Shown piece after piece: positions 14,112 through 40,570 of a DNA stretch of 64,000 nucleotides. The notes beneath the pieces are model-generated. The model saw only the letters and a list, made by a program, of their open reading frames with translations. It was not told the origin of the DNA and did not search any database. Position 1 is the stretch's first letter, and every line of letters starts with the position of its first letter. Origin of the DNA: Kaistia geumhonensis. Its GTDB lineage: Bacteria > Pseudomonadota > Alphaproteobacteria > Rhizobiales > Kaistiaceae. The stretch lies in the NCBI RefSeq assembly GCF_030815145.1, contig NZ_JAUSWJ010000001.1, positions 1,364,001 to 1,428,000 of the forward strand, written 5' to 3'. Both the position numbers and the translations under genes were made by a program.

Positions 14112-14122
14112 TTCGCAAAGCG

Positions 14123-14222
14123 CTAGAGCATGAGGAAGACGACCGGCGTCGTGACGAGCGTCAGGATCGGGCTGACAACGAGGCCGCCGACACTGGCGTA
14201 GCCGAGCCGATGGAGCAGCTCC
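14123..14222 (-). pseudogene. Remnant of the C-terminus of an RND efflux transporter
   Basis: A short leftward frame ends with LGYASVGGLVVSPILTLVTTPVVFLML and a stop, split here as LGYASVGGLVVSP and ILTLVTTPVVFLML. This matches the last transmembrane helix of AcrB/MdtC-type pumps, where a GGL-(I/V)-S...LT-TTPV pattern is standard. No upstream part of the roughly 1000-residue transporter is present, and the frame above it looks random. It appears to be the scar of a deletion between the two sugar transport loci. The match is by motif only. Confidence 0.5.
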
Positions 14223-14271
14223 GAGCCTGTGCCTGTTCCTCCAGCTGCCGCCTGAGCCCTGGTAACGGCCG

Positions 14272-15111: not shown

Positions 15112-15121
15112 CGATGCCTCC

Positions 15122-19833: not shown

Positions 19834-20305
19834 CCGATCATCGCTCGGCGTCCTCATCCTGCCGGAGATGACTGCGCCGGACCTTCGTGACGCCTAGCAT
19901 GTACGTCTGCCGATCAGGCATGCCCACATCCTTGCCGACATCCTGACGACGCTCAGTCGCGCCTGAGACGAAGGCACCCTCGCAACATCGCAGCGGCAGA
20001 ACAAACGACCCAGCCCGCCTCGAACATTAAAAACGACTATCTTTATCGAGTTAGGTGTCTAACGCAGACTGGGGATGTGGTCGCAGAGCGGCCGCCGCGG
20101 AGATTTGAGGGAGCAGCTTGCCCCGCGAACCAAAGGCTAAAGCGCCACGAACGGCTTCGTGGTTCCCGACGAAAGGAACGACGCGCATGACCCGCCTTCG
20201 CTGTTGACGCCGGCGCAACACCCGCATCGGACCAGCCTTCAGGACAGATTTCAGCAGCGCGACGCCTCCGCGAACGGACGCGTGCGCCTTCATGAGGATC
20301 ATGAC
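19834..20305. other. Intergenic region before the taurine operon
   Basis: This 472-bp stretch contains no convincing gene. A locally AT-rich block at about 20020-20060 (ending in AGTTAGGTGTCTAAC, an imperfect inverted repeat TTAG/CTAA) may hold the tau promoter. The open frame that runs from 20159 into tauA has no signal-peptide or family features before residue 50 and is not counted as coding. I found no recognisable riboswitch. Confidence 0.5.
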
Positions 20306-21340
20306 ATGAGCCAGAACGCATTCCCCATTTCCCGCCGCGCGGCGCTTGCCGCCGCCGCGGCCGTCGCCCTGACGCTCGGTGCCGGGATCGGCACTCTCAA
20401 GGCCGAGGAGAAGACGCTCACCATCGCCTACCAGACCGTGGTCGAGCCGTCGAAGATCCCTCAGGCAGACGGCACCTACGAACAGGCGACCGGCGCCAGG
20501 ATCGACTGGCGGAAGTTCGACTCCGGCGCCGACGTCATCGCGGCCATCGCATCCGGCGCCGTCGATATCGGCTATGTCGGTTCGAGCCCGCTCGCCGCCG
20601 CGGCGAGCCGCGAACTGCCGATCGAGACGATCTTCGTCGTCGGCATCATCGGCGAGTCGGAGGCGCTGGTGGCGCGCAACGGCTCCGGCATCGAGAGCGG
20701 CAAGGATCTCGTCGGCAAGAAGGTCGCGGTGCCCTTCGTCTCGACGACTCATTACAGCCTGCTCGCCGCGCTCAAGCATTGGGGCATCGATCCGAAGAGC
20801 GTCGAGATCCTGAACCTGCGCCCGCCGGAGATCGCCGCCGCCTGGTCGCGCGGCGACATCGACGCTGCCTATGTCTGGGATCCGGCGCTCGGCAAGATTA
20901 AGGAGAACGGCAAGGTCGTGACGAGTTCGGCCGAGGTCGGGGCCTGGGGTGCTCCGACCTTCGACGCCTGGATCGTCCGGAAGGACTATGCCGCCGCCCA
21001 TCCGGACGTCGTGAGCTCGTTCGTCAAGGTCACCGGCGACTCCTACGCCGCCTATCGCAAGGCGCCCGACGCCTGGACCGCGACCTCGCCCGAGGCCGAG
21101 AAGATCGCGCGGTTGACCGGCGCCAAGCTGGACGAAGTGCCGGCGCTGCTGAAGGGCTACGAGTTCCCGCTGCTCGACGAGCAGGCCTCGGCCAGGCTGC
21201 TGGGCGGCGGCACCACGACCGCGATCGCCGACGCGTCGGCCTTCCTGAAAGAGCAGGGAAAGATCCCGGCCGTGCTCCCCGACTATAGCCCCTATGTGAC
21301 GACCCGCTTCGTCACCGAGGCACTCGCCGCCACCAACTGA
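20306..21340 (+). CDS. tauA: Taurine ABC transporter substrate-binding protein
   Basis: The 344-residue protein starts with a twin-arginine signal (ISRRAALAAAA) and an Ala-rich core. The mature part has the sulfonate-binding family pattern: TIAYQTVVEPSKIPQADG, DWRKFDSGADVIAAIASGAVDIGYVGSSPLAA (two landmarks near residues 40 and 68), and VPFVSTTHYSLLAAL near residue 140. It captures taurine or a related alkanesulfonate in the periplasm. The ATG at 20306 follows GAGGA. It is the first gene of tauABCD and is followed by a hairpin before tauB, as often seen where the binding protein is made in excess. Confidence 0.92.
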   Translation: MSQNAFPISRRAALAAAAAVALTLGAGIGTLKAEEKTLTIAYQTVVEPSKIPQADGTYEQATGARIDWRKFDSGADVIAAIASGAVDIGYVGSSPLAAAASRELPIETIFVVGIIGESEALVARNGSGIESGKDLVGKKVAVPFVSTTHYSLLAALKHWGIDPKSVEILNLRPPEIAAAWSRGDIDAAYVWDPALGKIKENGKVVTSSAEVGAWGAPTFDAWIVRKDYAAAHPDVVSSFVKVTGDSYAAYRKAPDAWTATSPEAEKIARLTGAKLDEVPALLKGYEFPLLDEQASARLLGGGTTTAIADASAFLKEQGKIPAVLPDYSPYVTTRFVTEALAATN

Positions 21341-21347
21341 CGCGATC

Positions 21348-21381
21348 GACCGGCGCGGAAGCTCCTCCTTCCGCGCCGGTC
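21348..21381 (+). terminator. Intercistronic hairpin between tauA and tauB
   Basis: A perfect 14-bp stem (GACCGGCGCGGAAG and complement) with a 6-base loop follows the tauA stop directly. No U-tract is present, so it is more likely an mRNA-stabilising or attenuating element than a full terminator. Confidence 0.7.
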
Positions 21382-21393
21382 GTCGAGGATGCC

Positions 21394-22167
21394 ATGGCCC
21401 AGCTCGACTTCGCCCATATCACGACGACCTATGACGGCGCGGCATCACCGGTGCTGTCTGACGTATCGCTGTCGATCGCGTCCGGGGAATTCGTCGTCGT
21501 CATCGGCCGGTCCGGCTGCGGCAAGACCACGCTTCTCAACATAGCCGCCGGATTCACGGTGCCTGATGCGGGCCGGGTGACGCTGGACGGTCGGCCGGTC
21601 ACCGGTCCGGGCGCCGAGCGCGCGGTGGTGTTCCAGGACGACGCGCTGTTTCCATGGCTGACGACGGCGGAGAATGTCGCGTTCGCGCTGCGGCTTCGCG
21701 GAGAGGACAAGGCCGGGCGTCGTGAGGCTGCCGATGCGCTGCTCCAGAGGGTTGGCCTCGACGCGTTCGGTGACCGTCCGATCTGGCAGCTCTCGGGTGG
21801 GCAGCGCCAGCGGATCGGCCTCGCGCGCGCGCTGGCGGCGCAGCCCGACTTCCTGCTGATGGACGAACCGCTCGGCGCGCTCGATGCGATGACTCGCGAG
21901 CAGATGCAGGAACTGCTGCTCGATATCTCGCACGAGACCCGGGCCGGGATCCTGCTCATCACCCACAGCGTCGAGGAAGCGCTCTTTCTCGCCACCCGCA
22001 TTGTCGTCATGGCGCCCTCCCCCGGCCGTATCGTGCGCTCCCTCGAATTCGACTTCAGCCGCCGGATCCTGGCTGGCGAAAGCGCGCGGTCGATCAAGAC
22101 GTCGCCAGAGTTCGCAGCCGCGCGTGCCAGTGTGCTCGACCTCGTCTTCGACCGGGTGCCGGCATGA
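21394..22167 (+). CDS. tauB: Taurine ABC transporter ATP-binding protein
   Basis: The 257-residue ATPase has Walker A GRSGCGKTT near residue 38, the Q-loop FQDDALFPWLT, the signature LSGGQRQR and Walker B FLLMDEPLGALD, all canonical. The Q-loop text and size are those of the nitrate/sulfonate/taurine (TauB/SsuB) group. The switch histidine is in ITHSVEEA. It lies between tauA and tauC and overlaps tauC by 4 bp. It supplies ATP hydrolysis for sulfonate import. Confidence 0.95.
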   Translation: MAQLDFAHITTTYDGAASPVLSDVSLSIASGEFVVVIGRSGCGKTTLLNIAAGFTVPDAGRVTLDGRPVTGPGAERAVVFQDDALFPWLTTAENVAFALRLRGEDKAGRREAADALLQRVGLDAFGDRPIWQLSGGQRQRIGLARALAAQPDFLLMDEPLGALDAMTREQMQELLLDISHETRAGILLITHSVEEALFLATRIVVMAPSPGRIVRSLEFDFSRRILAGESARSIKTSPEFAAARASVLDLVFDRVPA

Positions 22168-23006
22168 CGCTGGTCGCGGAGGAGACGAGAACCATCGCGG
22201 TGCGCCCCGCCAAGGCAAAACCGCGCGCGCGCAACCGCCATGGACGCACCCGGGCCATCGCCACGGTCGCGACGCTGCTGGCGTTGCTGGCGGCATGGAC
22301 GCTGGCGTCCTCTCTCGGCTGGGTGCCGGCGCTCTTCCTCCCCTCCCCGCCCGCGGTCGCCAAGGCCTTCTGGACCGTCGCGACATCGGGCTTCGTCGAT
22401 GCGACGCTGCTGCAGCATCTCGCCGCAAGCCTCGCCCGGGTCTTCGCGGCCCTCATCGCTTCCATCGTCGTCGCCGTGCCGATCGGCTTTGCGATCGGCC
22501 TTTCGCCGGTCGGCCGCGGGATCTTCGATCCGATCATCGAGTTCCTGCGGCCGCTCCCGCCGCTCGCCTATCTGCCGCTGGTCATCATCTGGTTCGGCAT
22601 CGGCGAGGCCTCGAAGATCCTCGTCATCGCGATCGCCATGCTGGCACCGATCGTCATCTCGACGGCGGCGGGCGTCGCGTCCGTCTCGCGCGACCATCTG
22701 AACGCGGCCCGCTCGCTCGGCGCGACGCGGTTGCAGCTGCTGCGTCATGTCGTGCTGCCCTCGGCGCTTGGCGAGATCCTGACCGGAATTCGAATCGCGC
22801 TCGGCACAGGCTGGACGACCCTCGTCGCCGCCGAACTCGTCGCTGCCTCGCGCGGCGTCGGCTTCATGATCCAGTCGGCCGCGCAGTTCCTGGTCACCGA
22901 CGTCGTCATCATGGGCATCGTTCTGATCGCCGCCGTCGCCTTCGCCCTCGAGGCGGGCATCCGGCTGCTCCAGCGCTGGCTGGTGCCCTGGCTCGGCAAG
23001 TCCTGA
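22164..23006 (+). CDS. tauC: Taurine ABC transporter permease
   Basis: The 280-residue protein has a basic N-terminal extension (about 35 residues), then about six transmembrane segments. The EAA loop of BPD_transp_1 permeases is visible as NAARSLGATRLQLLRHVVLPSALGEILTG (landmark at about residues 173-201). The segment FLRPLPPLAYLPL near residue 128 is typical of the TauC/SsuC group. It starts with ATGA overlap on tauB. It forms the membrane channel for taurine or other sulfonates. Confidence 0.95.
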   Translation: MTLVAEETRTIAVRPAKAKPRARNRHGRTRAIATVATLLALLAAWTLASSLGWVPALFLPSPPAVAKAFWTVATSGFVDATLLQHLAASLARVFAALIASIVVAVPIGFAIGLSPVGRGIFDPIIEFLRPLPPLAYLPLVIIWFGIGEASKILVIAIAMLAPIVISTAAGVASVSRDHLNAARSLGATRLQLLRHVVLPSALGEILTGIRIALGTGWTTLVAAELVAASRGVGFMIQSAAQFLVTDVVIMGIVLIAAVAFALEAGIRLLQRWLVPWLGKS

Positions 23007-23024
23007 CCTTATGGGAGACCACGC

Positions 23025-23900
23025 ATGACTGCCCAAACCTCTCTCGCAATCCACCCGATCGCCCCGGCGCTCGGTGCCGTCGTCGGCGGCGTCGACCTCG
23101 CGCGTCCGCTGACACCGGTCCTCGTCGCAGCGCTGCAGGAGGCGCTGGTGACGCATCATGTCCTGTTCTTCGAAGGCCAACAGGTCACGCCCGCGACGCA
23201 GCGCGACGTCGCCGCGGCCTTCGGCTCGCTGCACATCCACCCGATCTACCCACATGTCGAGGATGTGCCGGAAATCATCGTGCTCGACACGTCGGCGGAC
23301 AACCTGCCCGACAACGACAACTGGCACACCGACGTCACCTTCATCGAAAACCCGCCGCTCGGCGCGCTGCTCGCCGCCAAGCAGCTGCCGCCCAATGGCG
23401 GCGATACGAGCTGGTCCTCGACCATCGCGGCCTATGAGGCTCTCTCGCCGGCCTTGAGGGACTTTCTCGACGGTCTCTCCGCCGTTCACGACATCCAGAA
23501 GTCCTTCCCCTTCGAGCGCTGGGGCGCCGGCGGGAATGAGGATCGCTGGCAAGAGGCGCGGCGGAAGAACCCGCCCGTCATCCATCCGGTCGTGCGCGTC
23601 CATCCCGTGACCCGTCGCAAGGGCCTCTTCGTCAATGAAGGCTTCACCACGCGGATCCTGGGGCTGAGTGCGCCCGAGAGCGACGCCGTGCTGCGCTTTC
23701 TGTTCGCTCACGTCGCCAAGCCGGAGTTCACGATCCGCTGGCGCTGGCGAGAAGGCGACGTCGCCTTCTGGGACAACCGCTTGACCCAGCACTACGCGCT
23801 CGCCGACTACCTGCCCCATCGGCGGATCATGCACCGGGCGACGATCCTCGGCGATCGGCCGGTGGGGCCGCAGAAGTCCGAGACCGGCGCCGCAGGATAG
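23025..23900 (+). CDS. tauD: Taurine dioxygenase (2-oxoglutarate/Fe(II) dependent)
   Basis: The 291-residue enzyme converts taurine with 2-oxoglutarate and oxygen to aminoacetaldehyde and sulfite. The iron ligands are H and D in NWHTDVTF near residue 103 and a distal histidine in THY-like TQHYALADY near residue 254. The 2-oxoglutarate-binding arginine is in the RRIMHRAT segment. Length and motifs fit TauD well. It is 18 bp after tauC, with GGGAG upstream of the ATG, and completes tauABCD. Such operons are normally expressed under sulfate limitation via CysB/Cbl, but no such regulator is encoded here. Related alkyl-sulfate dioxygenases cannot be fully excluded. Confidence 0.92.
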
Positions 23901-24692: not shown

Positions 24693-26570
24693 TTGGGACT
24701 TGCGGATATCGCCATTTCGGCAGCCTGCGCCGTAGCCTTGACTTTAGGCAGCATCGGATGGGGATTACTCCTCATCCAGAACGCCTCACGCGACAAAACC
24801 GTTGAGGCCAAGGCGATACCACTGGCTGCCGCCCTCGGCATTGTCTTTCTTTGCTTGATCGGCGCGATGCTCAACATCGCGTCGGCCTACGACATCGCCG
24901 TCTATTGCGTGGCCGGGCTCGTGGGCAGCGGATGGCTGGTCTGGAGCGCATTCCGTCCACATGCATGGACGAAGCGCGTCGATCTCTGGACGCTGCTGCC
25001 GATCGCCGTCGTATGGCTGATGTTCGTCGTCATCCCGCCCGCGATCAATCTCAACGACGACACCGCGGCCTATCTGGTCTTCGCCAAGAAGCTTGCGGAA
25101 ACGGGCGCAACCGGCTCGGAATACTTCAGTGAGCGCCGCCTCTTCACCTTTGGCGGCCAATTTGCCCTGCAAGCCCCATTCGCGTCATTCGCAAGGCTGC
25201 GCCTGATCGGTGTGGTGGAGCCGGGTCTTGGCCTGACTGTCCTGGGTTGGCTGATCGCAACGCTGCCGACATCGCGAGGATTGCGTCGGCTGCTGGCCTT
25301 CGTGGTGAGCATCGCCGTCATCGGCAGCAGTGTGATCGGGGCGAATTATCTCGCGAACACGGTGCCGACGCTCCTGCCCGGATCGCTTCTCGCCGGCGCC
25401 GTGGTGGCAGCCTTCGCCTGGCGCGCCGCGCCACGCGACTCTGGCCTGCTCCTGGTATCGGCTCTCGTACTCGGCGCGGGATCATTGCTTTTCCGGCCAA
25501 CGCCCTTGCCGTTCGTTGGTCTTCTGGGTCTCCTGCTGCTGATTGACAGCCTCAGAAACAAGCAGATCAAGGCTTTCGTGGTGGCATGCGCGGTGGCTGC
25601 CCTGGTCATCGCGCCCTTCGCGCTTCTGTTGCTTTTGAGTTCGAGAACGCTTTTCTACCCGTTCCTTGGCGAGGGCGTGCATCTCCTGATCCCGGGATCG
25701 GCCATCGTCTCGTCCGGCCGGCTCTCCGGAATATCGGCTCCTTCCGTCCGCGAACTGACAACGCTGATCTTTGCCCTGTTGCCGGCCGTGATGATCCTGC
25801 TCGGCAGCCCACAATCCCGCAGGAGCGCACTGCTCGTCCTCGCGCTTGCCGTCATCGCCGCCGGCGTGATCGCGGTCGGCGTCGATGGAGTCGCCTTGCA
25901 CCGCTACACCTTTGCGACGGTCTTCGGCTGCTCCGTCGGCGCGGCCTGTCTCTCGATCCTGTCGCCGCGTCCAGTGGCCTTTCCGCGTGTGAGCGGGAAG
26001 CAACTCGCATTCGGCGCGGCTGCCCTCGGCGTTCTTGTTCTCGGTGTCCTGGTTATGCGCGGTGCGACCGTGTCTGCCGTCGCCGCGAACGCGCTCGGCA
26101 AGCGTTTCTCGCAGCCCGTCTGGACGTCGGCCTTCGCCGACCGGTGCGCCGACGCGCAGTCTGCCTTCCCCGGCGGCGCCGTTGTGCTCGGAGTTAAGCT
26201 CGATTGCGCCAACGCCTTCGACTTCGCCCGCGATGAGGTTCTGGTGCACGACCAGCTCGGCGGCTCCTGGGCAGACCCGAGCCTGGATCTGACGCCAACC
26301 GCACTCCTCGAATCTCTTGCCCGATCGCGGGTGGATTGGATCATCGTGCCGGCGACGGTCATGAACTGGAGCGCGGAGGCCGGCGGCTCGGGCGAAGATG
26401 CCGGAAAACCGCGGGGCTGGCTAGACACCCTTGCGGTCCGCGCCGACAGGATGGCGACTGCCCTGAAGAGCCTCGTCGGCGGGGTCGAACCCACCTATCG
26501 CAACGACGCGGTCTCGGTCTATTCCGTCGCCAGCCTCTGCCGCGCCAAGGCAGCCGGCGCCTGCGACTGA
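24693..26570 (+). CDS. Polytopic membrane protein, GT-C glycosyltransferase-like
   Basis: The 625-residue protein has about 12 transmembrane segments up to residue 460 and then a soluble C-terminal domain of about 150 residues with five cysteines (ADRCADAQ, KLDCANAF and the C-terminal LCRAKAAGACD). After the third or fourth helix there is a NLNDDTAAYLVFAKKL loop. An acidic pair in this first large periplasmic loop is the catalytic hallmark of GT-C enzymes that use polyprenyl-phosphate sugars. No closer family is recognised. The start is a TTG with GGGGATGG upstream; no in-frame ATG is better placed. It is convergent with a GT2-GtrA operon, and together they resemble the three-part Gtr glycosylation systems. 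Confidence 0.72.
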   Translation: MGLADIAISAACAVALTLGSIGWGLLLIQNASRDKTVEAKAIPLAAALGIVFLCLIGAMLNIASAYDIAVYCVAGLVGSGWLVWSAFRPHAWTKRVDLWTLLPIAVVWLMFVVIPPAINLNDDTAAYLVFAKKLAETGATGSEYFSERRLFTFGGQFALQAPFASFARLRLIGVVEPGLGLTVLGWLIATLPTSRGLRRLLAFVVSIAVIGSSVIGANYLANTVPTLLPGSLLAGAVVAAFAWRAAPRDSGLLLVSALVLGAGSLLFRPTPLPFVGLLGLLLLIDSLRNKQIKAFVVACAVAALVIAPFALLLLLSSRTLFYPFLGEGVHLLIPGSAIVSSGRLSGISAPSVRELTTLIFALLPAVMILLGSPQSRRSALLVLALAVIAAGVIAVGVDGVALHRYTFATVFGCSVGAACLSILSPRPVAFPRVSGKQLAFGAAALGVLVLGVLVMRGATVSAVAANALGKRFSQPVWTSAFADRCADAQSAFPGGAVVLGVKLDCANAFDFARDEVLVHDQLGGSWADPSLDLTPTALLESLARSRVDWIIVPATVMNWSAEAGGSGEDAGKPRGWLDTLAVRADRMATALKSLVGGVEPTYRNDAVSVYSVASLCRAKAAGACD

Positions 26571-26613
26571 GGCGGCCCGGTGCCCGGTATCGAGCAGCGC
26601 TGCGGAAAAGCGA

Positions 26614-27432
26614 TCAGCTCTTCGGCGAAAAGCGGCCGGAAGCGGCCGCGAAGGTCTGCTTGAGAACGTCGAACTTTCCGCCGAGCCCGTTGATCTTGGT
26701 CGGGGTCGCGGCATTGGCCGGGTAGCGCCGCTGAACAGGCACCTGTGCCACCTTCATGCCGATCTGTCCGGCGCGGACGGTCAGGTAGAAGAGCAGCTCG
26801 TAGCGCTGGAAGACGTCGCGGAACGGCTGGACCCGCGGATCGAGAAGGTAACGCGCCGAATATCCGCGAAAGCCGTTGGTGGTATCGGTGAACCAATGCC
26901 GCCCCGCGAGGCTGAGCACGGGCGCGTGAATTCCGCGATTGGCGATGGTTCGCTCGAGCGGCGTATTCTCCGCCACGCCACCCGGCAGGTAGCGTGAGCC
27001 CTGCACGTAGTCGTAGCCCTGCTCAAGCTTTCCGACCATATCGGCCACAGCCTCGACGCCATCCTTGCCGTTGCCGTCGATGGTGACGATCCCGGTGTAG
27101 CCCTCGCGCAGACACCATGCATAGGCCATCCGCAGCTGAGCGCTGAGCTTTCCCGGGCCCGTCTTGGTCAGGACCGCCCGCACACCGGCGGTGGATATGA
27201 ATGCCGGATCGAGGGAGCCGTCGGTCGAGCCGCCATCGGCCACGATCACGTCGACCGGCAGCTTCGCCTCGCGGATGCGAAGCAGCTGATCGCGAATACG
27301 GTCGCCCTCGTTGATGACCGGGATCACGAGCGCATGGTCATGCTCGCGGATGCCGTGGACAGTTACCGTGAAGGTCGGAACTTCCCACAGCTGCGAACCG
27401 GGAAGCAGATCGGCTTCGGCGTCGGACATCAT
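26614..27432 (-). CDS. GT2-family glycosyltransferase (polyprenyl-phosphate sugar synthase type)
   Basis: The 272-residue protein has the GT-A fold landmarks of DPM1/GtrB-like enzymes: HALVIPVINEGDRI near residue 33, VIVADGGSTDGS near residue 61, TIDGNGKDG in the position of the DxD motif near residue 117, GSRYLPGG near residue 145, and DTTNGFRGYS near residue 183. There are no clear transmembrane helices at the C-terminus, so the GtrA neighbour may anchor it. It should charge undecaprenyl phosphate with a sugar at the inner face. The start overlaps the gtrA-like stop (ATGA). It is the last gene of a six-gene operon. Confidence 0.88.
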   Translation of the reverse strand: MMSDAEADLLPGSQLWEVPTFTVTVHGIREHDHALVIPVINEGDRIRDQLLRIREAKLPVDVIVADGGSTDGSLDPAFISTAGVRAVLTKTGPGKLSAQLRMAYAWCLREGYTGIVTIDGNGKDGVEAVADMVGKLEQGYDYVQGSRYLPGGVAENTPLERTIANRGIHAPVLSLAGRHWFTDTTNGFRGYSARYLLDPRVQPFRDVFQRYELLFYLTVRAGQIGMKVAQVPVQRRYPANAATPTKINGLGGKFDVLKQTFAAASGRFSPKS

Positions 27433-27830
27433 GAAGTTCCATCCTGTAGTCCGGCAGGTTTGAGAAAGACGAAGTACTTGCTGACCAGATAGTTGACGCA
27501 GAACGAAATGCCCGCGCCCGCCACCAGAACGGGCAAGGCATGGCTATCGCCGAAGACGGCGACGAGTGCGGCGACACCGACGACGCGCGCGGCCAATGTC
27601 GCGACCAGCGCCATACCGTAGCGCAGCGCGCGGACGACGGAGAGCTGGCGGGCACCGGAGCGAAAAGTCCAAAGCTCGTGAAGGGCATAGTTGAGCCCGG
27701 CAGCAACGACGAATCCCGCCGCCGCCGCCAGCCAGAGAGGCACTCCGAGCAGCCGGGCAGCGCTCCAGGCGACGCCGAGGTCGAGCACCAGCCCCGCGAC
27801 CGAGACGACGAAGAAGCGCGCAGCCTCCAT
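27429..27830 (-). CDS. GtrA-family membrane protein (putative lipid-linked sugar flippase)
   Basis: This 133-residue protein is made of four transmembrane helices, with the family motif FVVAAGLNYALHELWTF (a N-Y helix followed by aromatic WTF) near residue 41 and FCVNYLVSKYFVFLKP at the end. GtrA proteins are proposed to flip polyprenyl-phosphate sugars. It shares one base with the stop of the upstream FAD enzyme gene (TGATG) and four with the downstream GT2 gene, so all three are translationally coupled. Confidence 0.92.
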   Translation of the reverse strand: MEAARFFVVSVAGLVLDLGVAWSAARLLGVPLWLAAAAGFVVAAGLNYALHELWTFRSGARQLSVVRALRYGMALVATLAARVVGVAALVAVFGDSHALPVLVAGAGISFCVNYLVSKYFVFLKPAGLQDGTS

Positions 27831-28975
27831 CAGGCGTCCCTATCCAGAAGAAGAGTCTCGTTGGCTCCGGCGAATTCCGGCTCCATCCGGGTCACGAGCT
27901 CGAACAGATCGTAAATATTGTCGAGCTTTCCGCCCAGGATGGACAAGACCCGGCTGCCGGACGGCTTGCGCTGGTAAAGGATCGGCCGCCCGTCGTCGCG
28001 CTCGTTCTTGGTCAGAACCGTCTTGACATCATAGATCGACTTGCGCGGGATAGCCCTATCGAGGGATGGCAGGTACCGTCGTCCATCGTGGATCATGTGC
28101 TGGACGCGGCTGTTCGCGACCGCTTCCTGCAAACGGGCCGGAGACATGCCCGGCCCCGCGTCGTCCGTCCAGCTGTCATGCGGCGTGTAGCGGACATGGG
28201 TGAGGGAATGCAGCCCCTCCGACGGGTATGGCATGCACGAGAAGAACGGGCCATCCATCAACGTCACACCGACATTTTTCAACTCTTCCGGCGGTTCGAC
28301 CAACGCGATCTCGGCCAGTTCATATTTGAGTTGCGCGCGCGGCAGGCGGGAGCGATCGAGCACCGCATTGATCCCCGCATAGGTGATGTTGAACGCGTAT
28401 CGCGCGGCAACCTCGGAGCCGTCGGACAGCGTGGCCACGACCGATCCGGGCCGGTCCTCGACCGCCTCCACCGCGGTGGACATGAGGACGTCCACCCCGG
28501 CCCGATCCAGCCGCGCGGCGAGCAGTCGGCGCAGCACCGAATAGTCGAAGGCAGCCTCGGAGCAGGCGAACACGCCCTCGACCATGGACTGGTCGAACAG
28601 CGCCTCCTGGCTCGGCAAGGCCGGCCTGATCGGCGCACCGATGTCCCGGAACATGCGATAGAAGCGCTTCGCCGAGACCTTGGATCGGTGGCGGGCGATG
28701 GCATAGAGCATCTGGAAATCATCGACGACCGCCTCGGGGAAATCGTCCATGAACCGGCGATGCAGCAGCATCGACTTGACGGCCGTCAGAGCCGAGCGGG
28801 GATAATGGAAGCCTGTATGAATGCGCGCCTGGTTGACGCGCGATGCGCGATCCAGCAGGGTCTCGCCAGCCTCGACCAGCAGCACGCGCGACGAGATCGA
28901 CCGCAGGAACAGCGCGAGGCAGCAGCCATAGAAGCCGCCGCCTATCACGAGATAGTCCACCTCCCTTGGGCTCAT
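27830..28975 (-). CDS. FAD-dependent oxidoreductase (DAO superfamily)
   Basis: The 381-residue protein has an N-terminal dinucleotide-binding motif (LVIGGGFYGCCLALFL, near residue 9), an acidic residue ending the second strand (VEAGETLLDRAS) and an ARIHTGFHYPRS segment near residue 51 reminiscent of the L-2-hydroxyglutarate/glycerol-3-phosphate group. The C-terminus has a SILGGKLDNIYDL block. It probably oxidises a hydroxyl or amine of a sugar or precursor. Its start overlaps the preceding gene by 4 bp and its stop overlaps gtrA. A role in making or modifying the sugar passed to the GT2 enzyme is inferred from position only. Confidence 0.85.
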   Translation of the reverse strand: MSPREVDYLVIGGGFYGCCLALFLRSISSRVLLVEAGETLLDRASRVNQARIHTGFHYPRSALTAVKSMLLHRRFMDDFPEAVVDDFQMLYAIARHRSKVSAKRFYRMFRDIGAPIRPALPSQEALFDQSMVEGVFACSEAAFDYSVLRRLLAARLDRAGVDVLMSTAVEAVEDRPGSVVATLSDGSEVAARYAFNITYAGINAVLDRSRLPRAQLKYELAEIALVEPPEELKNVGVTLMDGPFFSCMPYPSEGLHSLTHVRYTPHDSWTDDAGPGMSPARLQEAVANSRVQHMIHDGRRYLPSLDRAIPRKSIYDVKTVLTKNERDDGRPILYQRKPSGSRVLSILGGKLDNIYDLFELVTRMEPEFAGANETLLLDRDA

Positions 28976-29997
28976 GGCTTCGGTATCTGCCGAAGACCGG
29001 CGAGATCGTGCTCGAAGTCGACATTGAGATCGGAGGCGACCTGCCCGAACAGATCAATGCGATTCACCTCGGCGGCGACCGAGTCGAGGCGGCCTCCATT
29101 GGTCCGCGACAGCAATTGCTGCAACCCGAGACTGAGGCCCGTGATCGAAATGCCCAGGAAGACCATCGACAGGCTGAGAACCGCCGACAAGGTCAGCCAG
29201 CCCGGCGCCAGGTCGTGCACCAGGATCCAGGCAGCCACGACATAGAGGCCATAGAAGAAGCCGAGCATGGCGAGGAACGCCGAAGCCAGCGTCACCGCCA
29301 GCAGAAGGTTCGGCGCCATGTAGACGAGGAGCTTCTGCAGCAGGTCGAGGCGCCGCCGCAGTCCCGCATTGCGCGGAACGGTCACGCCGGCCGCCACCTC
29401 GATGAATGCGAGCGGCACCCTCGGGTCGCGTGGCGGGAAGCGCAAGGCGAGGTCGGGATCGGGATGCGCGAGCAACTGATTGAGCAGCGTGCGCGGAAGC
29501 GCCAGAGACTGCAGGTCGCGCGGATTGACCTTGAAGCCGGCCAGACGACCCAGCAGCACCAGCACGGATCCGGGGCTGCCATGGCGGATCTTCGGCCGCC
29601 TCGTCGCCAGCACCCCGCGCTGTTCGTCGGCCGCCCTCTCGATCATCTCGATCGGATCGACACAGCCGAGCTCCGCCGAACTGACGAGGAGAACGACATC
29701 GCCGATCGCCTCCTCGGCGGCGATCACCCGACGACGGTAATAGGCCGTGCCGTCGCGCACCGTGAACAGGCGCACATTGGCGACGCGGCGGATCAGCGGC
29801 AGAAAGTCGGCCCGGCGACTGTCGTCGGCTACCACGATGATCTCGCGGAAACGAAAGCGCGCATCGACCCTCGCCGCCAGCGCGGCAATCGCGTCGAATG
29901 TCTCATGATCCGAGGCCAGATCGCCGAAGCAGATCGACACGAGAACGTCCTCGCGCAGGGCGACCGGCGGCAGATGGGCTGGCGCGGCATCCATCAT
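28972..29997 (-). CDS. Degenerate GT2-like glycosyltransferase with C-terminal transmembrane pair
   Basis: The 341-residue protein begins like a GT-A glycosyltransferase (VLVSICFGDLASD near residue 18, REIIVVADDSRR near residue 51). Where the DxD metal motif is expected it has VLLVSSAELGCVDP, so the acidic pair is missing. Two transmembrane helices follow at about residues 232-290 (LLLAVTLASAFLAMLGFF and VLSLSMVFLGISITGL), as in GtrB-like enzymes, and then a soluble tail. It may be a catalytically altered or regulatory partner of the intact GT2 enzyme in the same operon. The overlap with both neighbours is 4 bp. The assignment is by fold-level pattern only. Confidence 0.7.
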   Translation of the reverse strand: MMDAAPAHLPPVALREDVLVSICFGDLASDHETFDAIAALAARVDARFRFREIIVVADDSRRADFLPLIRRVANVRLFTVRDGTAYYRRRVIAAEEAIGDVVLLVSSAELGCVDPIEMIERAADEQRGVLATRRPKIRHGSPGSVLVLLGRLAGFKVNPRDLQSLALPRTLLNQLLAHPDPDLALRFPPRDPRVPLAFIEVAAGVTVPRNAGLRRRLDLLQKLLVYMAPNLLLAVTLASAFLAMLGFFYGLYVVAAWILVHDLAPGWLTLSAVLSLSMVFLGISITGLSLGLQQLLSRTNGGRLDSVAAEVNRIDLFGQVASDLNVDFEHDLAGLRQIPKP

Positions 29998-30830
29998 CGT
30001 CCCTCCCCTTCCGCCGCCCGGACCAAGGCGGCGATGCGGTCCCGCACCGTGGCGAGACCGCCCTCGTGGCGTTTCATCTCGATCGATACGGCGCGGCCAT
30101 AGCCGCCGGCCCGGAGCCCGGCCAGGACCGGCGCGAGGTCCGTCGCGTCGTCCGGCGCCGGCGCGAGATTGGGCTCGCTGACATGCACATGGCTGAGACG
30201 GGGCGCCAGCGCAGCGGCTCGCTCCGCGACCGTTCCAAAACTGCCGTTCATGTGCATCGCACCGAGATCGAGGATCACGGCCACGGCCGGGTGAGACACC
30301 AGTTCGACGAAGGCCTCGGCATCCTCCAGCGTGTTGAGGAAATTCGTGCCATAGGCCGGCGGGTTCGACTCCACCGCGATGACCGTGCCGGATGCGGCGG
30401 CCCGATCTCCCAGTCTCCGGAAGGTCTCGGCCGCCTGATCCAGCGCATCGCCCGGCGCCATGTCGTCGGGTATGCGGCGCTGGCCCGGCGATCCGAAGAC
30501 GATGTTGGGGATACCGAAACGTCCCGCGAGGTCGATCGCCCGCGTCATTCCGCGCTCGAAGGCCGCCCTCGCCGCAGCATCGCCAAACAGAGCGGCCCCC
30601 TGGACGCCGAAAAGCAGGGCCTGCATCGACACCAGCGAAAAGCCGCGGGCGCGGATCTCCGCGAGAGCGGCGTCGGCGATGGCATCGTCCGGAACGAAGG
30701 GATCCGCGGCGCCGGCGAAGAAGATCGCCGGAGCGATCTCGAGCCCGCTCAATCCGGCCTCCTCCATGAGGTCATAAGCGCCCAGGCGCTCCTCAGGCAG
30801 CCAGGCGATGTTGGAGACGGACAGGATCAT
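29994..30830 (-). CDS. Sugar phosphate isomerase/epimerase family protein (TIM barrel)
   Basis: The 278-residue protein has the AP-endonuclease-2/xylose-isomerase-like barrel: MILSVSNIAW at the first strand, LSGLEIAPAIFF for the second, an IAVESNPPAYGTNF segment with a metal-binding glutamate near residue 161, an ILDLGAMHMNG segment near residue 196 with D and H, SHVHVSEPN, and a final glutamate in VSIEMKRHE. These are the expected E-D-H-E metal ligands. The ATG at 30830 overlaps the upstream stop (ATGA), so the longer open frame upstream is rejected. It probably isomerises the sugar used by the cluster. Confidence 0.88.
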   Translation of the reverse strand: MILSVSNIAWLPEERLGAYDLMEEAGLSGLEIAPAIFFAGAADPFVPDDAIADAALAEIRARGFSLVSMQALLFGVQGAALFGDAAARAAFERGMTRAIDLAGRFGIPNIVFGSPGQRRIPDDMAPGDALDQAAETFRRLGDRAAASGTVIAVESNPPAYGTNFLNTLEDAEAFVELVSHPAVAVILDLGAMHMNGSFGTVAERAAALAPRLSHVHVSEPNLAPAPDDATDLAPVLAGLRAGGYGRAVSIEMKRHEGGLATVRDRIAALVRAAEGEGR

Positions 30831-31783
30831 TGGCCGTGCTTCTCCGAGGCGAAGAACTCGGACAGCTTGTCCAGCACCGTGCCCGCGTCCTCGAGATACG
30901 GTCCCGTCCGTCCCCACAGGGGCGCATGGCGCGTGTGCATGTCTTCACGATGCAGGCGTGCACCCGTCTGGGGCATGTCGGCCCCGAGCAGCCGCGCATG
31001 GATGTTGCCGGCCCGCAGCGGCTCGACGGCGAGGTGCAGGGTGCCCAGCCCGGCGCGGGTCGCGACGCCGATATCCCGCCAGAGCCGCGACATGTCGTAA
31101 TACTGGTAGGTCGTATCCGGGTTGTGGAACTGCGTCGCCGACATGCCGGCCGCCCGCACGGCGTCGTCAAGTTCGGGACGAAGTGGATCGCCGTTCAAGC
31201 CCTCGCGGTCGAGCACCATCATCCCCGCCGCATTGGGCGTGTAGAGCCTCGCAAGAGCCTCGCGAAGGCGCGATGGCACCTGCTGCAACAACTCGTCAAG
31301 GCGCGGCTGCGTAAGCATCGTCGGGACGGGGTTCAACAAATCGAAGATGAAGTTCTTCCGCAGTCCGGGACCGAACAGCGCCGGCAAACGGACGACGAGG
31401 CAATCGTCGAAGCGCGACTGGCAGAAGGCCTCAAGCGCACGTCGATGACGGCCATAGGCCAGCTCCTGCTGGAAGGACTGCGTATCCTCATCGTCCTCGC
31501 CGGCGAAATCGGCGAGCACGGCGATGGACGAAATCAGCACGAAACGGCGCGCGCGGGCGCGGTCGAGAGCAGAGACCAACGCATCGACCTGCTCGCGGTC
31601 ACGCTCCGGCTCACGGTTGGCGGTGAACATCGAACCGGGCGCCGCAGCACAGACCAGCGTATCGAACTGCTCGCCGCCAATTTCGGCAATGTTCGCGCTG
31701 TTGAAGCGTCCGTCGAATCTATGCTGCCGTAGAAGTATTCCGCCGACAAACCCCGTATGCCCCACGACGGCGTCGATACTCAT
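30827..31783 (-). CDS. NAD(P)-dependent epimerase/dehydratase-like protein
   Basis: The 318-residue protein opens with a Rossmann motif (VVGHTGFVGG near residue 6), then TLVCAAAPG at the fourth strand and RFVLISSIAVL, which provides the serine. The active-site pair appears as ELAYGRHRRALE (Y-x-x-x-R instead of Y-x-x-x-K), followed by VVRLPALFGPG. This is the extended-SDR layout with an altered catalytic lysine. It is the first gene of a six-gene overlapping operon and so may make or modify a nucleotide sugar. Substrate unknown. Confidence 0.82.
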   Translation of the reverse strand: MSIDAVVGHTGFVGGILLRQHRFDGRFNSANIAEIGGEQFDTLVCAAAPGSMFTANREPERDREQVDALVSALDRARARRFVLISSIAVLADFAGEDDEDTQSFQQELAYGRHRRALEAFCQSRFDDCLVVRLPALFGPGLRKNFIFDLLNPVPTMLTQPRLDELLQQVPSRLREALARLYTPNAAGMMVLDREGLNGDPLRPELDDAVRAAGMSATQFHNPDTTYQYYDMSRLWRDIGVATRAGLGTLHLAVEPLRAGNIHARLLGADMPQTGARLHREDMHTRHAPLWGRTGPYLEDAGTVLDKLSEFFASEKHGQ

Positions 31784-32912: not shown

Positions 32913-33617
32913 CTAGGATCCGACATGGATATGGCGGTGGCGGTGCGTGTGGGCGTGATCGTGGATTTCGGCAGGGAGCAGCCGCCCGTCACGCACGACC
33001 ATCGCGCGCGTCGCGAGGTCGGCGACGAAATCGGCATCATGCGAGACCAGGATCATTGCTCCGGGAAAGTCGCGCAGCGCCTTGCGCAGCCGCTCGCCAT
33101 TGACGGCGTCGACGCCGTTGGTCGGCTCGTCGAGCATGAGCATGTCAGGCTCCATGGCGAAGAGGCCGGCGAGGCAGACGAGCCGCTTCTCGCCGCCGGA
33201 GAGACGGTGGCTGATGCGGTCGGCGAGATCGGCGATGCCGAGCCTTGCGAGCGCAGCCTCGGCCATCGACCGCGCGGCGGCCGGACCGTGGCCGAGATTG
33301 AGCGGCCCGAAGGAGACATCCTCGATCACGGTCGGGCAGAAGAGCTGGTCGTCGCTGTCCTGAAAGAGAAAGCCGATCCTCGGGCGCAGCCTCGCAAAGT
33401 GCCGCTCCGTGCGGCACTCCTCCCCGAACAGGCGGATGCTGCCGCCGCCGCTCGCCTCAAGGCCGAGAATGGTGCGCAGCAGCGTCGTCTTGCCCGCCCC
33501 GTTCGGTCCGATGAGGGCCAGACGCTCGCCTTGCGCGAGGTCGAGATGGACGTCGGAGAGGACCGACCGGCCCTTACGGCCGACGGAAAGGCCGGAGAGT
33601 TCGATGAGCTTCGTCAT
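32913..33617 (-). CDS. nikO: Nickel ECF transporter ATP-binding protein
   Basis: The 234-residue ATPase has Walker A GPNGAGKTT near residue 38, Q-loop FLFQDSDDQLFCPTV (the CbiO/EcfA-type text), signature LSGGEKR and Walker B MLMLDEPTNGVD. The C-terminus ends in a histidine-rich tail (HDHAHTHRHRHIHVGS), which is consistent with binding of Ni or Co. The ATG at 33617 overlaps the stop of the T-component gene by 4 bp; the longer frame that reads upstream is not used. It is the last gene of the operon nikK-M-L-Q-O and drives metal uptake. Confidence 0.92.
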   Translation of the reverse strand: MTKLIELSGLSVGRKGRSVLSDVHLDLAQGERLALIGPNGAGKTTLLRTILGLEASGGGSIRLFGEECRTERHFARLRPRIGFLFQDSDDQLFCPTVIEDVSFGPLNLGHGPAAARSMAEAALARLGIADLADRISHRLSGGEKRLVCLAGLFAMEPDMLMLDEPTNGVDAVNGERLRKALRDFPGAMILVSHDADFVADLATRAMVVRDGRLLPAEIHDHAHTHRHRHIHVGS

Positions 33618-34327
33618 AGCCGGTCGACCGCCAGCAGGAGGAGACCCGTCGCGGAGACGGCGGCGGCGGCGGTCCAGTCGCGGAACGCCGGAGGCGCGAA
33701 GGTCGCATAGGGATAGCGGCCCGAATAGCCGCGGCAGCGCATCGCTTCCGTCACGCGCTCGGCGCGGTCGAGAGCACGGACCAGAACCATGCCGACGAGA
33801 TGGCCGTAGCTGCGCCATGTATGGCGGTTCGAGCGGGGCCGGAAGCCGCGCGCCCGCATCGATTCGCGCAGCCGCATCGTCTCGGCGCGGACGAGCTCGA
33901 CATACCGCGCCGTCATCACGAGCAGCCGGTTGAACCGCTCCGGCACATGCAGCGCATGCAGCGTCGCTCCGAGCCGGGCCGGCTCCATGGAGCCGACGAG
34001 CACGGCGAGGAGCAGCACCGAGGCCGAGACCTTGAGCGCGATCAGCGCTGCGAGCGCGAGGCCGTCGGCGCTCACCGCGAGCGGACCCACCCGGGCGATG
34101 GCCGGGCCGGGCATCGTCAGCGGCAGCATGATGAAGAGGAGAAGCATGTAGCCCTCGACATGCAGCAGGCGCCGGACGAGCGGCCAACCCGGCCGCTGCA
34201 GGATGGCCAGAAACGCCGCGAGGCCGAACGCCGTGAGCGCCGCCTGAAGGCCGTGAAGCTGCGCGACCGCCGCGATCGCGATCAGGCTGGCGACGAGGCC
34301 GAGGCGGGGATCGTCGATGACGGTCAT
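33614..34327 (-). CDS. nikQ: Nickel ECF transporter T component
   Basis: The 237-residue integral membrane protein has about five transmembrane segments. It carries the two coupling-helix motifs of CbiQ-type proteins: RLRESMRARGF near residue 152 and RVTEAMRCRGYSG near residue 191, each an A/M-x-R-x-R-G variant. It couples the ATPase to the substrate-specific membrane component. It overlaps both neighbours by 4 bp. Nickel rather than cobalt is favoured by the gene content of the operon and by the NikR-type box upstream. Confidence 0.92.
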   Translation of the reverse strand: MTVIDDPRLGLVASLIAIAAVAQLHGLQAALTAFGLAAFLAILQRPGWPLVRRLLHVEGYMLLLFIMLPLTMPGPAIARVGPLAVSADGLALAALIALKVSASVLLLAVLVGSMEPARLGATLHALHVPERFNRLLVMTARYVELVRAETMRLRESMRARGFRPRSNRHTWRSYGHLVGMVLVRALDRAERVTEAMRCRGYSGRYPYATFAPPAFRDWTAAAAVSATGLLLLAVDRL

Positions 34328-34911
34328 CGCCTGCGTCCCCGCGCCCAGAGACCGATGCCGGCGAGACCGATGATGAGGAAGACGCCGGAGAGGATGTCGG
34401 CGAAGCGGAGGCGCGAATCCATGAGCTCGATCCGCTCCTGGAGAGGCTCCGTTCCCCGCTCGACGGCGGCGGCGACGAGCGCCGCGAGGCGGGCGTCCTC
34501 GGTCATGCGAGGGGCGGCGGGTGCGGGCCGCGCCGGGGTCGGCGCCTCGCCGGCATCGGCGGCGCCGATCGTGCGGGCTGCGAGCGTCGCCGAGGCGATG
34601 TGCGCCTCATGGGTGTCCACGGTTACCGTTACGTCGCTGGAAGATGTGGCCGGCAGATCGAAGGCCAAGCGGCCTTCGGCGTCGGTCGTCCCGCTCGCGA
34701 TCTCGGCGCCTGCGGCGTCCTTCGCGACCCAGGCGCTGCCCTCGGGCCGACCGCCGCCGATGAAGAAGGCATAGCCATGGACGGACCGCCCTTCCACCGC
34801 TGCGAAGACCTTGAGCTTGTGGGCCTCCGCCGGGAGCGCAAGCGACAGGAACACCGCGAGGACAAGGAGAGGTCGCGCCCAAACCGCGCGCAGCCTGCGC
34901 GGCACGATCAT
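34324..34911 (-). CDS. nikL: Nickel transporter accessory membrane protein
   Basis: The 195-residue protein has a signal peptide ending at PAEAHKLKVFA. The new N-terminus then begins with a histidine, a feature of NikL/CbiL-type periplasmic loops. Its soluble middle resembles an Ig-like domain (DAEGRLAFDLPA), followed by an Ala/Pro linker and a final transmembrane helix (ILSGVFLIIGLAGIGLWA near residue 172). In NikMLQO systems NikL lies between M and Q, as here. It is needed for metal access to NikM. Overlaps both neighbours. Confidence 0.85.
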   Translation of the reverse strand: MIVPRRLRAVWARPLLVLAVFLSLALPAEAHKLKVFAAVEGRSVHGYAFFIGGGRPEGSAWVAKDAAGAEIASGTTDAEGRLAFDLPATSSSDVTVTVDTHEAHIASATLAARTIGAADAGEAPTPARPAPAAPRMTEDARLAALVAAAVERGTEPLQERIELMDSRLRFADILSGVFLIIGLAGIGLWARGRRR

Positions 34912-35522
34912 GCGGGCACCGGCCGCAGCGCATCCGGCTGCACCCGCGCAAGAAACGACACGACGGCCACGGTGACAAGGGCCTCGCCGATCATCAGCGG
35001 CAGATAGGTGGCGATCAGGACGCGGGCGACCGGCGTGTAGCTCGATGACGAAAGGGCGAGCGACAGCGCCACGAGGCCGCCGGTCCCGGCGACCGACAGG
35101 GCGCCGAGCAGTGCCGCCAGCGCGCCGCGCGCCATGGCTCCGGTGCTGGCACGGATCGCAGGGCCGAGAAGCGCCGCGGCCACGAAGCCCGGCAGCGCGA
35201 TGTTGACCGTGTTGACGCCGAGCGTGGTCAGCCCGCCGAAGCCGAACAGCAGCGCCTGCAGCAGCAGCATGACGAGAACGGCCGGAAAGACGGCCGCGCC
35301 CAGCATGAGCCCCATCAGGCCGCTGAGCAGGAGATGCACGCTCGACGGGCCGACGGGGACCGAGATGAGCGAGACGACGAACACTGCCGCCGCCAGCACG
35401 CCGGCGCGCGGGATCAGCCGATCGTCGAGCAGCCTGAGGCCGAGCGCGACGCCGGCTGCCGCGATCACCGTGCCGCCGACCAGCACCGGACCGGAAAGGA
35501 CGCCGTCGGGGATATGCGCCAT
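34908..35522 (-). CDS. nikM: Nickel ECF transporter S component
   Basis: The 204-residue membrane protein begins MAHIPDGVLS, which contains the N-terminal metal-coordinating histidine of the CbiM/NikM family. Further on it has PVGPSSVHLLLSGLMGLMLG near residue 56, in which a second conserved histidine lies, and about six transmembrane helices. It binds the metal ion. The gene starts 8 bp after the nikK stop and overlaps nikL. The NikM/CbiM distinction rests on the operon (presence of nikK and nikL and absence of CbiN) rather than on this sequence. Confidence 0.92.
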   Translation of the reverse strand: MAHIPDGVLSGPVLVGGTVIAAAGVALGLRLLDDRLIPRAGVLAAAVFVVSLISVPVGPSSVHLLLSGLMGLMLGAAVFPAVLVMLLLQALLFGFGGLTTLGVNTVNIALPGFVAAALLGPAIRASTGAMARGALAALLGALSVAGTGGLVALSLALSSSSYTPVARVLIATYLPLMIGEALVTVAVVSFLARVQPDALRPVPA

Positions 35523-35529
35523 CGCCGCC

Positions 35530-36306
35530 CTACCGGGAAACCGGCATGTCGGTCGCCTTCACCCAGATGAGTGCGCCCTCCTCGACCGGAACCTCCTTGC
35601 CGTCCGGCGCTCGGCCGGGAGCATCGCCTTCCGTCAGCGCCGCGAAGCCCCACCATCCCGCGCGCGGCATCGCATAGGAGAAGACACCGGCCGCGTCCGC
35701 CTTGAGGACCTGCGTGACGAAGGCGTCGTTGGGCGCCGCGACCGAACCGTCATTGACGAATTCGACCTCGATCTCGGCGAAGGGCACCGGCTCGCCGTTC
35801 CTGAGCACGACGCCGGAAAAGAGATTGCCGGTCCACAGACCGGTCGGCCGGGTCAGCGGCCGGATCTCCACGGGCAGGCCGACCAGGGCGTCCCACCCTT
35901 CGCCCGAGGCATAGCCGTCGACGAGGACTTTGGCGTAGTGGACGATCAGCTTGTTCTCGGCCGGCTCGAAATAGGGCTGTGGCTCGACATAGAAGATCGC
36001 CGCGCCCGGCTCGTCGATCGTTCTGGTCAGCGTCCATGCGGTCGCCTCGCCGATCGGCTTCGCGACGATCGACGGGGTGAGGTCGGTGCGCTTGCCCCCA
36101 GCGAGCACGCCGACCGCCACCGGACGCTTCATGTCCATGACCGGTCCACCCTCGAAGGGATGGGTGAACACCATGTCGAGCGTCACGCTCCCGCCTTCCG
36201 GCAGGACCTCCGCGGAGGGGATGATCTCCTGGAAATGCGCGAAGACGGGCGTAGCGCCGATGGCGACAAGGAAAGCAAGGCCAGTGGCCACGGCGCGACG
36301 GCTCAT
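35530..36306 (-). CDS. nikK: DUF4198 periplasmic protein, nickel transport accessory
   Basis: The 258-residue exported protein has a Sec signal ending at TPVFAHFQEI, so the mature protein starts with His. It has the DUF4198 features DMVFTHPFEGGPVMDM near residue 44 and a C-terminal GVFSYAMPRAGWWGFAAL block. DUF4198 proteins named NikK accompany nickel ECF transporters and probably deliver the metal. It is the first gene of the operon and starts directly after the NikR-type box at 36325. Confidence 0.88.
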   Translation of the reverse strand: MSRRAVATGLAFLVAIGATPVFAHFQEIIPSAEVLPEGGSVTLDMVFTHPFEGGPVMDMKRPVAVGVLAGGKRTDLTPSIVAKPIGEATAWTLTRTIDEPGAAIFYVEPQPYFEPAENKLIVHYAKVLVDGYASGEGWDALVGLPVEIRPLTRPTGLWTGNLFSGVVLRNGEPVPFAEIEVEFVNDGSVAAPNDAFVTQVLKADAAGVFSYAMPRAGWWGFAALTEGDAPGRAPDGKEVPVEEGALIWVKATDMPVSR

Positions 36307-38874: not shown

Positions 38875-38891
38875 GGCGGGCTCCGTTCGGA

Positions 38892-40469: not shown

Positions 40470-40535
40470 GGCGAGCGCTCCCTTGAGTTGCGCGGGACCA
40501 TAGCCTTGGGCATATGTTCTTCTAAATTGATTGTT

Positions 40536-40552
40536 TGGAACGGATCGTTCCA
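40536..40552. promoter_or_regulatory. LysR-type palindromic operator candidate
   Basis: TGGAACG, three bases GAT, then CGTTCCA form a perfect 7-bp inverted repeat located 18 bp before the lysR start and 66 bp before dabB. Its T/A ends 15 bases apart differ a little from the classic T-N11-A box, although the inner part also fits. Confidence 0.68.
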
Positions 40553-40570
40553 TAAAAGAGAACGCATCGC

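Follow-up and report, generated by a model that had tools for sequence, protein, structure and literature searches.

A conserved, mobile six-gene cassette in Kaistia geumhonensis, putatively combining Gtr-like glycosylation with sugar inversion

A conserved and mobile six-gene unit

The window analysed here is a 64,000-nucleotide stretch of Kaistia geumhonensis DNA (contig NZ_JAUSWJ010000001.1, positions 1,364,001 to 1,428,000 of the forward strand), and the element under study is a putative glycosylation cassette of seven genes at 24693-31783 of this window. All seven open reading frames (ORFs) were confirmed. Six of them form a leftward block (26614-31783, stop codons being counted in the coordinates), while the seventh, which encodes a membrane protein and starts with TTG, converges on the last gene of the block across a gap of 43 bp. 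From left to right, the genes are:

24693..26570, + strand: putative GT-C glycosyltransferase, polytopic, 625 aa (position as in the membrane partners of relatives; N-D-D loop)
26614..27432, - strand: polyprenyl-phosphate-sugar synthase-like GT2, similar to dolichol-phosphate mannose synthase (DPMS), 272 aa (PF00535)
27429..27830, - strand: GtrA family membrane protein, putative flippase, 133 aa (PF04138, E = 7e-19)
27830..28975, - strand: DAO-fold flavin adenine dinucleotide (FAD) oxidoreductase, 381 aa (PF01266, E = 9e-18)
28972..29997, - strand: pseudo-glycosyltransferase (pseudo-GT) of GtrB/ArnC fold with C-terminal membrane helices, 341 aa (profile comparison)
29994..30830, - strand: ketose-3-epimerase-like triosephosphate isomerase (TIM) barrel, 278 aa (PF01261)
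30827..31783, - strand: extended short-chain dehydrogenase/reductase (SDR), epimerase/RmlD-like, putative NAD(P)H ketone reductase, 318 aa (PF01370)

Counted from the 5' end of the block, neighbouring genes overlap by 4 bp (SDR/TIM), 4 bp (TIM/pseudo-GT), 4 bp (pseudo-GT/FAD), 1 bp (FAD/GtrA) and 4 bp (GtrA/GT2). These figures take the in-frame ATG at 30830 as the start of the TIM gene, which gives the 278-aa product; the ORF was listed with a GTG start at 30917, which would produce a 91-bp overlap with the SDR gene. A preliminary description of this DNA had reported six leftward genes overlapping by 1-4 bp and facing a membrane protein, and both ORFs and coordinates agree with it. Five of the seven proteins match Pfam families, namely Epimerase, AP_endonuc_2 (xylose-isomerase-like), DAO, GtrA and Glycos_transf_2, and no Pfam or NCBIfam family was matched by the 341-aa degenerate GT2 or by the membrane protein.

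The six leftward genes are a real, conserved unit. Searching an alignment of the FAD protein against 84,980 species genomes yielded 87 confirmed loci, of which the best 80 were retained. By title, most of these are Alphaproteobacteria; Burkholderiales, Desulfovibrionaceae, Nitratidesulfovibrio, Glaciecola, Cytophagales and an unspecified 'bacterium' account for one record each. When scored with cleaned profiles, 70 of the 80 loci contain the complete six-gene set, on a single strand in 68 of the 70. Counts per family in these FAD-selected loci are 80 for FAD, 80 for the pseudo-GT, 79 for TIM, 77 for GT2, 76 for SDR and 74 for GtrA. Gene order is variable, with seven arrangements, the commonest being found in 48 loci. 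Among the ten incomplete loci, four (L007, L020, L031, and L085) are truncated by a contig edge at the flank where the gene is missing, and five (L064, L065, L069, L073, and L083) are incomplete despite enough room. The last one, L040 in Bradyrhizobium archetypum (4898-7297), is a degraded cassette in which the TIM gene is a fragment and no SDR, GtrA or GT2 gene was found. Among 199 genomes of the order, a search with the 341-aa protein identified the window genome and one other, Afifella marina (G107, corresponding to L081), where all six genes occur in a different order, together with a different membrane protein gene starting before the end of the TIM gene.

Two further samples, drawn with hidden Markov models (HMMs) and independent of DNA patterns, comprise 385 genomes of the class (including that of the window) and 398 genomes of the phylum; their loci were scored with the initial profiles. 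In the class sample, the FAD profile is positive in the window genome and seven others. The pseudo-GT gene directly adjoins the FAD gene in all seven, an SDR gene is present in five and a clear TIM gene in four. GT2 is clear in three (L103, L104, and L106) and weaker in L105 (1e-14) and L108 (2e-5). The SDR profile is positive in the window genome and six others, five of which are FAD genomes; in the sixth, a FAD gene below the initial cut-off (4e-37) directly adjoins the SDR gene, and in all six the distance between SDR and a FAD gene is at most 3 kb. Overall, SDR occurs in seven and FAD in eight of the 385 genomes, with six in common, when about 0.15 would be expected if they were independent (7 x 8 / 385). 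In the phylum sample, FAD was detected in five other genomes: three have FAD, pseudo-GT, SDR, TIM and GT2, one carries FAD and pseudo-GT on a contig of 7.5 kb, and one has a remote FAD gene alone. The grouping of these families put forward in the preliminary description is thus borne out, as they occur together in most retained loci and largely together in the HMM-drawn samples.

The cassette is also horizontally mobile. Its FAD gene is absent from the 13 other genomes of the genus (the window's is the only one of 14 to carry it), and its GT2 gene from the 27 other genomes of the family. The closest FAD relatives, at 76% and 73% identity, are titled as an uncultured Rhodobacteraceae and as Aurantiacibacter luteus, whose orders differ from that of Afifella. 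A long nucleotide match with one genus member (G585) ends at about 23.9 kb on the left, followed by a single 58-bp match at 24.3 kb, and a long match with another (G130) begins at 32916 (about 32.9 kb) on the right. The two matches bracket the cassette, and neither genome has the FAD gene. Related cassettes are located on plasmids (seven loci) and on one contig from a viral collection. The latter (L110, 6919-13679) carries pseudo-GT, FAD, SDR, TIM, an SMR transporter, GT2 and a membrane protein with a PMT_2 match below the cut-off; this cassette is possibly prophage-borne.

Putative synthase, flippase, membrane partner and pseudoenzyme

The GT2 profile matches Pyrococcus DPMS (5mlz, E = 1.5e-10), and its acidic motifs are strongly conserved, with D66 and D124 found in all 91 loci and D119 and N121 in 90 of the 91. 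By this homology, the protein is likely a DPMS-like polyprenyl-phosphate-sugar synthase. The putative flippase is of the GtrA family in the window, and an SMR/EamA-type transporter replaces GtrA in L087, L137, L110 and perhaps L109 (E 1e-5). Several components are joined in single open frames: GT2 and membrane protein in 21 loci (20 genome loci and plasmid L093), GtrA and GT2 in L019 and L058, and GtrA and membrane protein in L064. Pfam confirms the L019 fusion (GtrA plus GT2) and the GtrA portion of L064; in L093, the GT2 match falls under the curated cut-off, although the annotation of the record gives a single long GT2 protein there.

In 69 of 87 loci, a large membrane ORF lies next to or inside the cassette or is fused to it, versus 41 of 370 random flank control points, and a looser threshold adds L010. 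Such ORFs fall into 13 multi-member clusters plus singletons, mostly without a family match. For the membrane partner in L007, the closest relative, the structural model (pLDDT 91) predicts a GT-C fold: its 13 best PDB matches are all GT-C enzymes, headed by ALG12 (E 1e-4, TM-score 0.52, the sole match with E below 0.001) and including ALG9, ArnT, AftA, AftD, Pmt4, PimE and oligosaccharyltransferase. The profile of the relatives' GT-C family gave no match among PDB sequences. As for the window's own membrane protein, a simple script counts 14 hydrophobic segments, and an early loop bears the N-D-D motif NLNDDTAAY. It has no PDB sequence match and no homologue in the 384 other class genomes or in the plasmid collection. 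Its alignment with the relatives' GT-C profile covers 14 columns over the N-D-D loop, with a probability of 3%, which is not significant, and its AlphaFold model has a pLDDT of 37. It is plausible that this protein is a GT-C enzyme, as assigned by its place, size and N-D-D loop. Its earlier designation as GT-C-like was therefore plausible but overstated, given the lack of a family match, of a homologue and of a confident model. Similarly, the Gtr-type pathway proposed at the same time holds for the DPMS-like GT2, for GtrA and, in the closest relative, for the GT-C partner, while the window's own membrane protein is a putative GT-C.

The remaining GT2-related protein is, judging from its profile, a conserved GtrB-fold pseudoenzyme. 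It aligns over most of its length to GtrB sll0501 (5eke, E = 2e-18), as well as to ArnC, and retains the C-terminal membrane segment. The DAD-type DxD is missing in all 94 members, another D-x-D being present within the same stretch in three of them. A DDGS-like motif (strict pattern) occurs in six of the 94 (L043, L084, L088, L104, L107, and L109), with DNAS instead in two more (L103 and L105), suggesting that distant members are less decayed. The 'degenerate' GT2 of the preliminary description is better described as a conserved GtrB-fold pseudoenzyme. We considered that it could be a second active synthase, but set this aside as improbable because the motifs are lost; we infer instead a role as a scaffold or lipid-sugar holder.

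The putative oxidoreductase, epimerase and reductase trio

The TIM protein aligns, in profile and sequence, with ketose 3-epimerases and with 3-keto-D-glucoside 4-epimerase (6wn6, which we take to be YcjR of Escherichia coli). Its E154/D188/H216/E251 set, presumably the metal and catalytic residues, as in ketose 3-epimerases and 3-keto-glycoside epimerases, is complete in 94 of 95 loci, all but the degraded L040. Enzymes of the ketose-epimerase type require a ketone beside the carbon being inverted. The FAD enzyme has L-alpha-glycerophosphate oxidase (4x9m) as its nearest solved relative, for the N-terminal part only, and its signature N-Q-x-R-x-H...H-Y-P-R is found in 99 of 100 relatives, the remaining one (L109) being cut by the contig end. 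DAO flavoenzymes oxidise secondary alcohols, and this one could supply the ketone for the TIM epimerase. The third enzyme resembles dTDP-4-dehydrorhamnose reductase (8g22, E = 2e-5). Its glycine motif GxxGxxG is found in 93 of 93 loci, as are Y110 and R114, so that it matches Pfam Epimerase while carrying YxxxR where extended SDRs usually have YxxxK. When this SDR is missing, NAD(P)-type enzymes of other families may be found near the FAD gene, namely a GFO/IDH/MocA protein in L108 and a classical SDR gene overlapping the FAD gene in L107. Finally, the trio is found bare (FAD-SDR-TIM) in L121, and disrupted by insertion sequences in L091.

The preliminary description had suggested that the additional enzymes make an unusual, oxidised sugar. 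That they are sugar-modifying enzymes is supported. From their sequences, however, it is more likely that the sugar ends up epimerised, with the ketone as a passing intermediate, than that it stays oxidised, since the flavoenzyme comes with both a TIM enzyme whose ketose-epimerase site is intact and a reductase of the NAD(P) type. As the TIM enzyme needs a neighbouring ketone, the flavoenzyme could supply one and reductases travel along, oxidation, epimerisation and reduction in succession offer an economical reading. Such a succession has precedents in YcjS/R/Q (PMC11543891) and in DprE1/DprE2 (PMC11127046), as described in the accessible parts of these papers.

Proposed pathway, alternatives and known systems

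With moderate confidence, we propose that the cassette is a mobile extracytoplasmic glycosylation system with three Gtr-like components, to which a sugar-inversion module has been added. The DPMS-like GT2 would load a sugar onto polyprenyl phosphate. The DAO flavoenzyme would then oxidise a ring CH-OH to a ketone, and the membrane-anchored pseudo-GT may hold the flavoenzyme, the lipid-sugar or both. Next, the metal-dependent TIM-barrel enzyme would invert the carbon adjoining the ketone, which the SDR would reduce to yield an epimerised sugar. Finally, GtrA (or SMR in some relatives) would flip the lipid-sugar, and a swappable GT-C would transfer the sugar to a surface glycan or protein. The proposal is based on the conservation of the unit, the families, the catalytic residues kept or lost, the fusions, the swaps and the predicted GT-C fold of a relative's partner; it is from these that we infer each reaction and the order of reactions, inversion on the lipid, the identity of the sugar and the acceptor. 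The fusions, the replacements of GtrA by SMR and those of the reductase lend support to three components plus inversion. A bolder and more tentative possibility is that the pseudo-GT would act as a membrane platform, holding the polyprenyl-phosphate sugar while the flavoenzyme, TIM enzyme and reductase rebuild its stereochemistry, and that the cassette would thereby be an exchangeable rare-sugar module without dedicated nucleotide-sugar pathways.

Several observations weigh against the proposed pathway. In the class sample, GT2 is clear in just three of the seven loci and weaker in two more, GtrA is found in none of the seven and an SMR-like gene in one (L109, a 4.1-kb contig), and L107 and L108 have neither an SDR of the cassette family nor a clear TIM gene. 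In four loci (L037, L055, L059, and L071), no ORF for a large membrane protein lies within 3.5 kb, the looser threshold included, a few of the membrane ORFs neighbouring cassettes clearly encode different proteins (exosortase, symporter, MBOAT, or Wzx-type), and the model of the window's membrane protein is uninformative. The replacement of YxxxK by YxxxR means that reductase activity is not assured. The L121 trio (7943-17149) has no GT genes, and its neighbours are a DeoR gene and the genes of an Rbs-type sugar ABC importer. Lastly, the pseudo-GT gene directly adjoins FAD in just 48 of the 70 complete loci; together with the three clear GT2 genes in seven, this weakens the platform role slightly, within the uncertainty already attached to it.

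Alternatively, the trio may act first on a soluble sugar or nucleotide sugar, GT2 then loading the finished unusual sugar. We regard this as rather unlikely. It would account for the trios without GT2 genes in L121 (near a sugar importer) and L091, and fits the closest solved TIM relatives, which are ketose epimerases and a 3-keto-glucoside epimerase, i.e. enzymes of soluble sugars. The importer possibly hints at a soluble substrate in L121, whose trio may be a catabolic form of the inversion module. However, this alternative leaves no role for the pseudo-GT, found in 80 of 80 loci and beside FAD in seven of seven class-sample loci, and L107 and L108, which lack the epimerase, retain both FAD and pseudo-GT. 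That the trio yields a finally oxidised or rearranged sugar (a keto-sugar or a ring-altered one) instead of a simple epimer appears improbable. Oxidation of secondary alcohols is general for DAO flavoenzymes, the nearest solved relative is a glycerophosphate oxidase and the SDR has lost its usual Lys, but three NAD(P)-type families accompany the flavoenzyme (the cassette SDR, GFO/IDH/MocA in L108, and the classical SDR in L107), which argues that the ketone is reduced again. Finally, although L092, L090 and L088 are located among polysaccharide genes, it is very improbable that the genes are chance neighbours or a fragment of an ordinary O-antigen cluster without joint function, given six families occurring jointly in 70 of 80 loci despite seven gene arrangements, and SDR and FAD sharing six genomes of the 385-genome sample when about 0.15 would be expected.

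The preliminary description knew of no named system with this exact set, and in agreement with it no description of the combination was found in the literature searched, which takes in few subscription papers. Judging from the accessible part of the paper, the nearest system found is that of the pentofuranose systems of Kelly et al. 2024 (PMC11127046), which comprise PPPRS, a MATE flippase, GT136 and, optionally, SDR or DprE1/E2 epimerases. These systems would share with the cassette a lipid-linked donor, epimerisation before flipping in some of them and GT-C transfer; DprE1/DprE2 and an SDR epimerise lipid-linked pentofuranose (PMC11127046). They differ from the cassette, which has a DAO flavoenzyme, a TIM-barrel epimerase and a pseudo-GT. 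By Pfam and NCBIfam, no PPPRS- or MATE-type family was found among the seven proteins; GT136 was not searched for. Kelly et al. state that they were unaware of other epimerases in O-antigen side-chain glycosylation systems (PMC11127046), and the cassette may be a further such epimerase system with different chemistry.

Gtr O-antigen glucosylation (GtrA, GtrB, and a serotype-specific GT-C) has in common with the cassette a cytoplasmic GT2 synthase, a GtrA flippase and mobility, and its variable GT-C would correspond to the putative one of the cassette. By its DPMS profile and acidic motifs, the cassette GT2 would correspond to the Gtr polyprenyl-phosphate-sugar synthase. A flippase of GtrA or SMR type is likewise present (PF04138 in the window, GtrA in 74 of 80 loci, and SMR replacements), but GtrA is missing from the seven class-sample loci. 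No GtrB-type synthase with both C-terminal helices and DxD is encoded: the likely active synthase is DPMS-like, DPMS being its best match, whereas the GtrB-fold protein is a pseudoenzyme, and FAD, TIM and SDR enzymes are added.

Another comparison concerns mycobacterial DprE1/DprE2. DprE1 is, we presume, a VAO-type flavoprotein, whereas that of the cassette is of the DAO family and is accompanied by the TIM epimerase as a third enzyme. Converting decaprenyl-phosphoryl ribose (DPR) to the arabinose form (DPA), DprE1/DprE2 pair an oxidase and a reductase on a polyprenyl-phosphate sugar, as proposed for the cassette, and the DPR/DPA pathway has an SMR-type exporter, like some relatives of the cassette (accessible part of PMC11127046). 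The combination of a VAO-type flavoprotein, an SDR and a donor derived from phosphoribosyl pyrophosphate is thus not that of the cassette, with its DAO flavoenzyme and no PPPRS-like family.

The YcjS-YcjR-YcjQ pathway of E. coli also combines a TIM-barrel epimerase with a pair of sugar dehydrogenases, the 6wn6 enzyme being homologous to the cassette TIM protein; YcjS and YcjQ presumably belong to another family than the FAD enzyme and SDR of the cassette. According to the accessible part of PMC11543891, YcjS-YcjR-YcjQ interconvert D-guloside and D-glucoside, and the pathway differs from the cassette in being soluble, beside an ABC importer and without GT2 or flippase.

If the proposed pathway is true, lipid-linked sugar epimerisation would extend past pentofuranoses to flavoenzyme, TIM-barrel and reductase chemistry, and envelope synthesis would include a conserved pseudo-glycosyltransferase. 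The FAD signature and the pseudo-GT would then be genetic markers for unusual surface sugars, chiefly in Alphaproteobacteria.

In Ruegeria conchae (L092, 10492-12246), the cassette is followed by a VPLPA-CTERM exosortase gene and then by rfbC, rfbB, rfbD and rfbA, and this exosortase possibly indicates a link to exopolysaccharide or protein sorting. In the window, the cassette is flanked on its right side by CbiM/N/Q/O-like metal transporter genes (32913-36306), named from translations alone. At 36424-40553 lie a large DUF2309 (DabA)-like protein and then a membrane protein, recognised by reading only and perhaps an inorganic-carbon transporter. On the left flank, 20159-23900 contains taurine-type ABC transporter genes and a TauD-like dioxygenase gene, also named from translations alone; the TauD-like protein has a close homologue (E <1e-80) in two of the 14 genus genomes, that of the window being counted.

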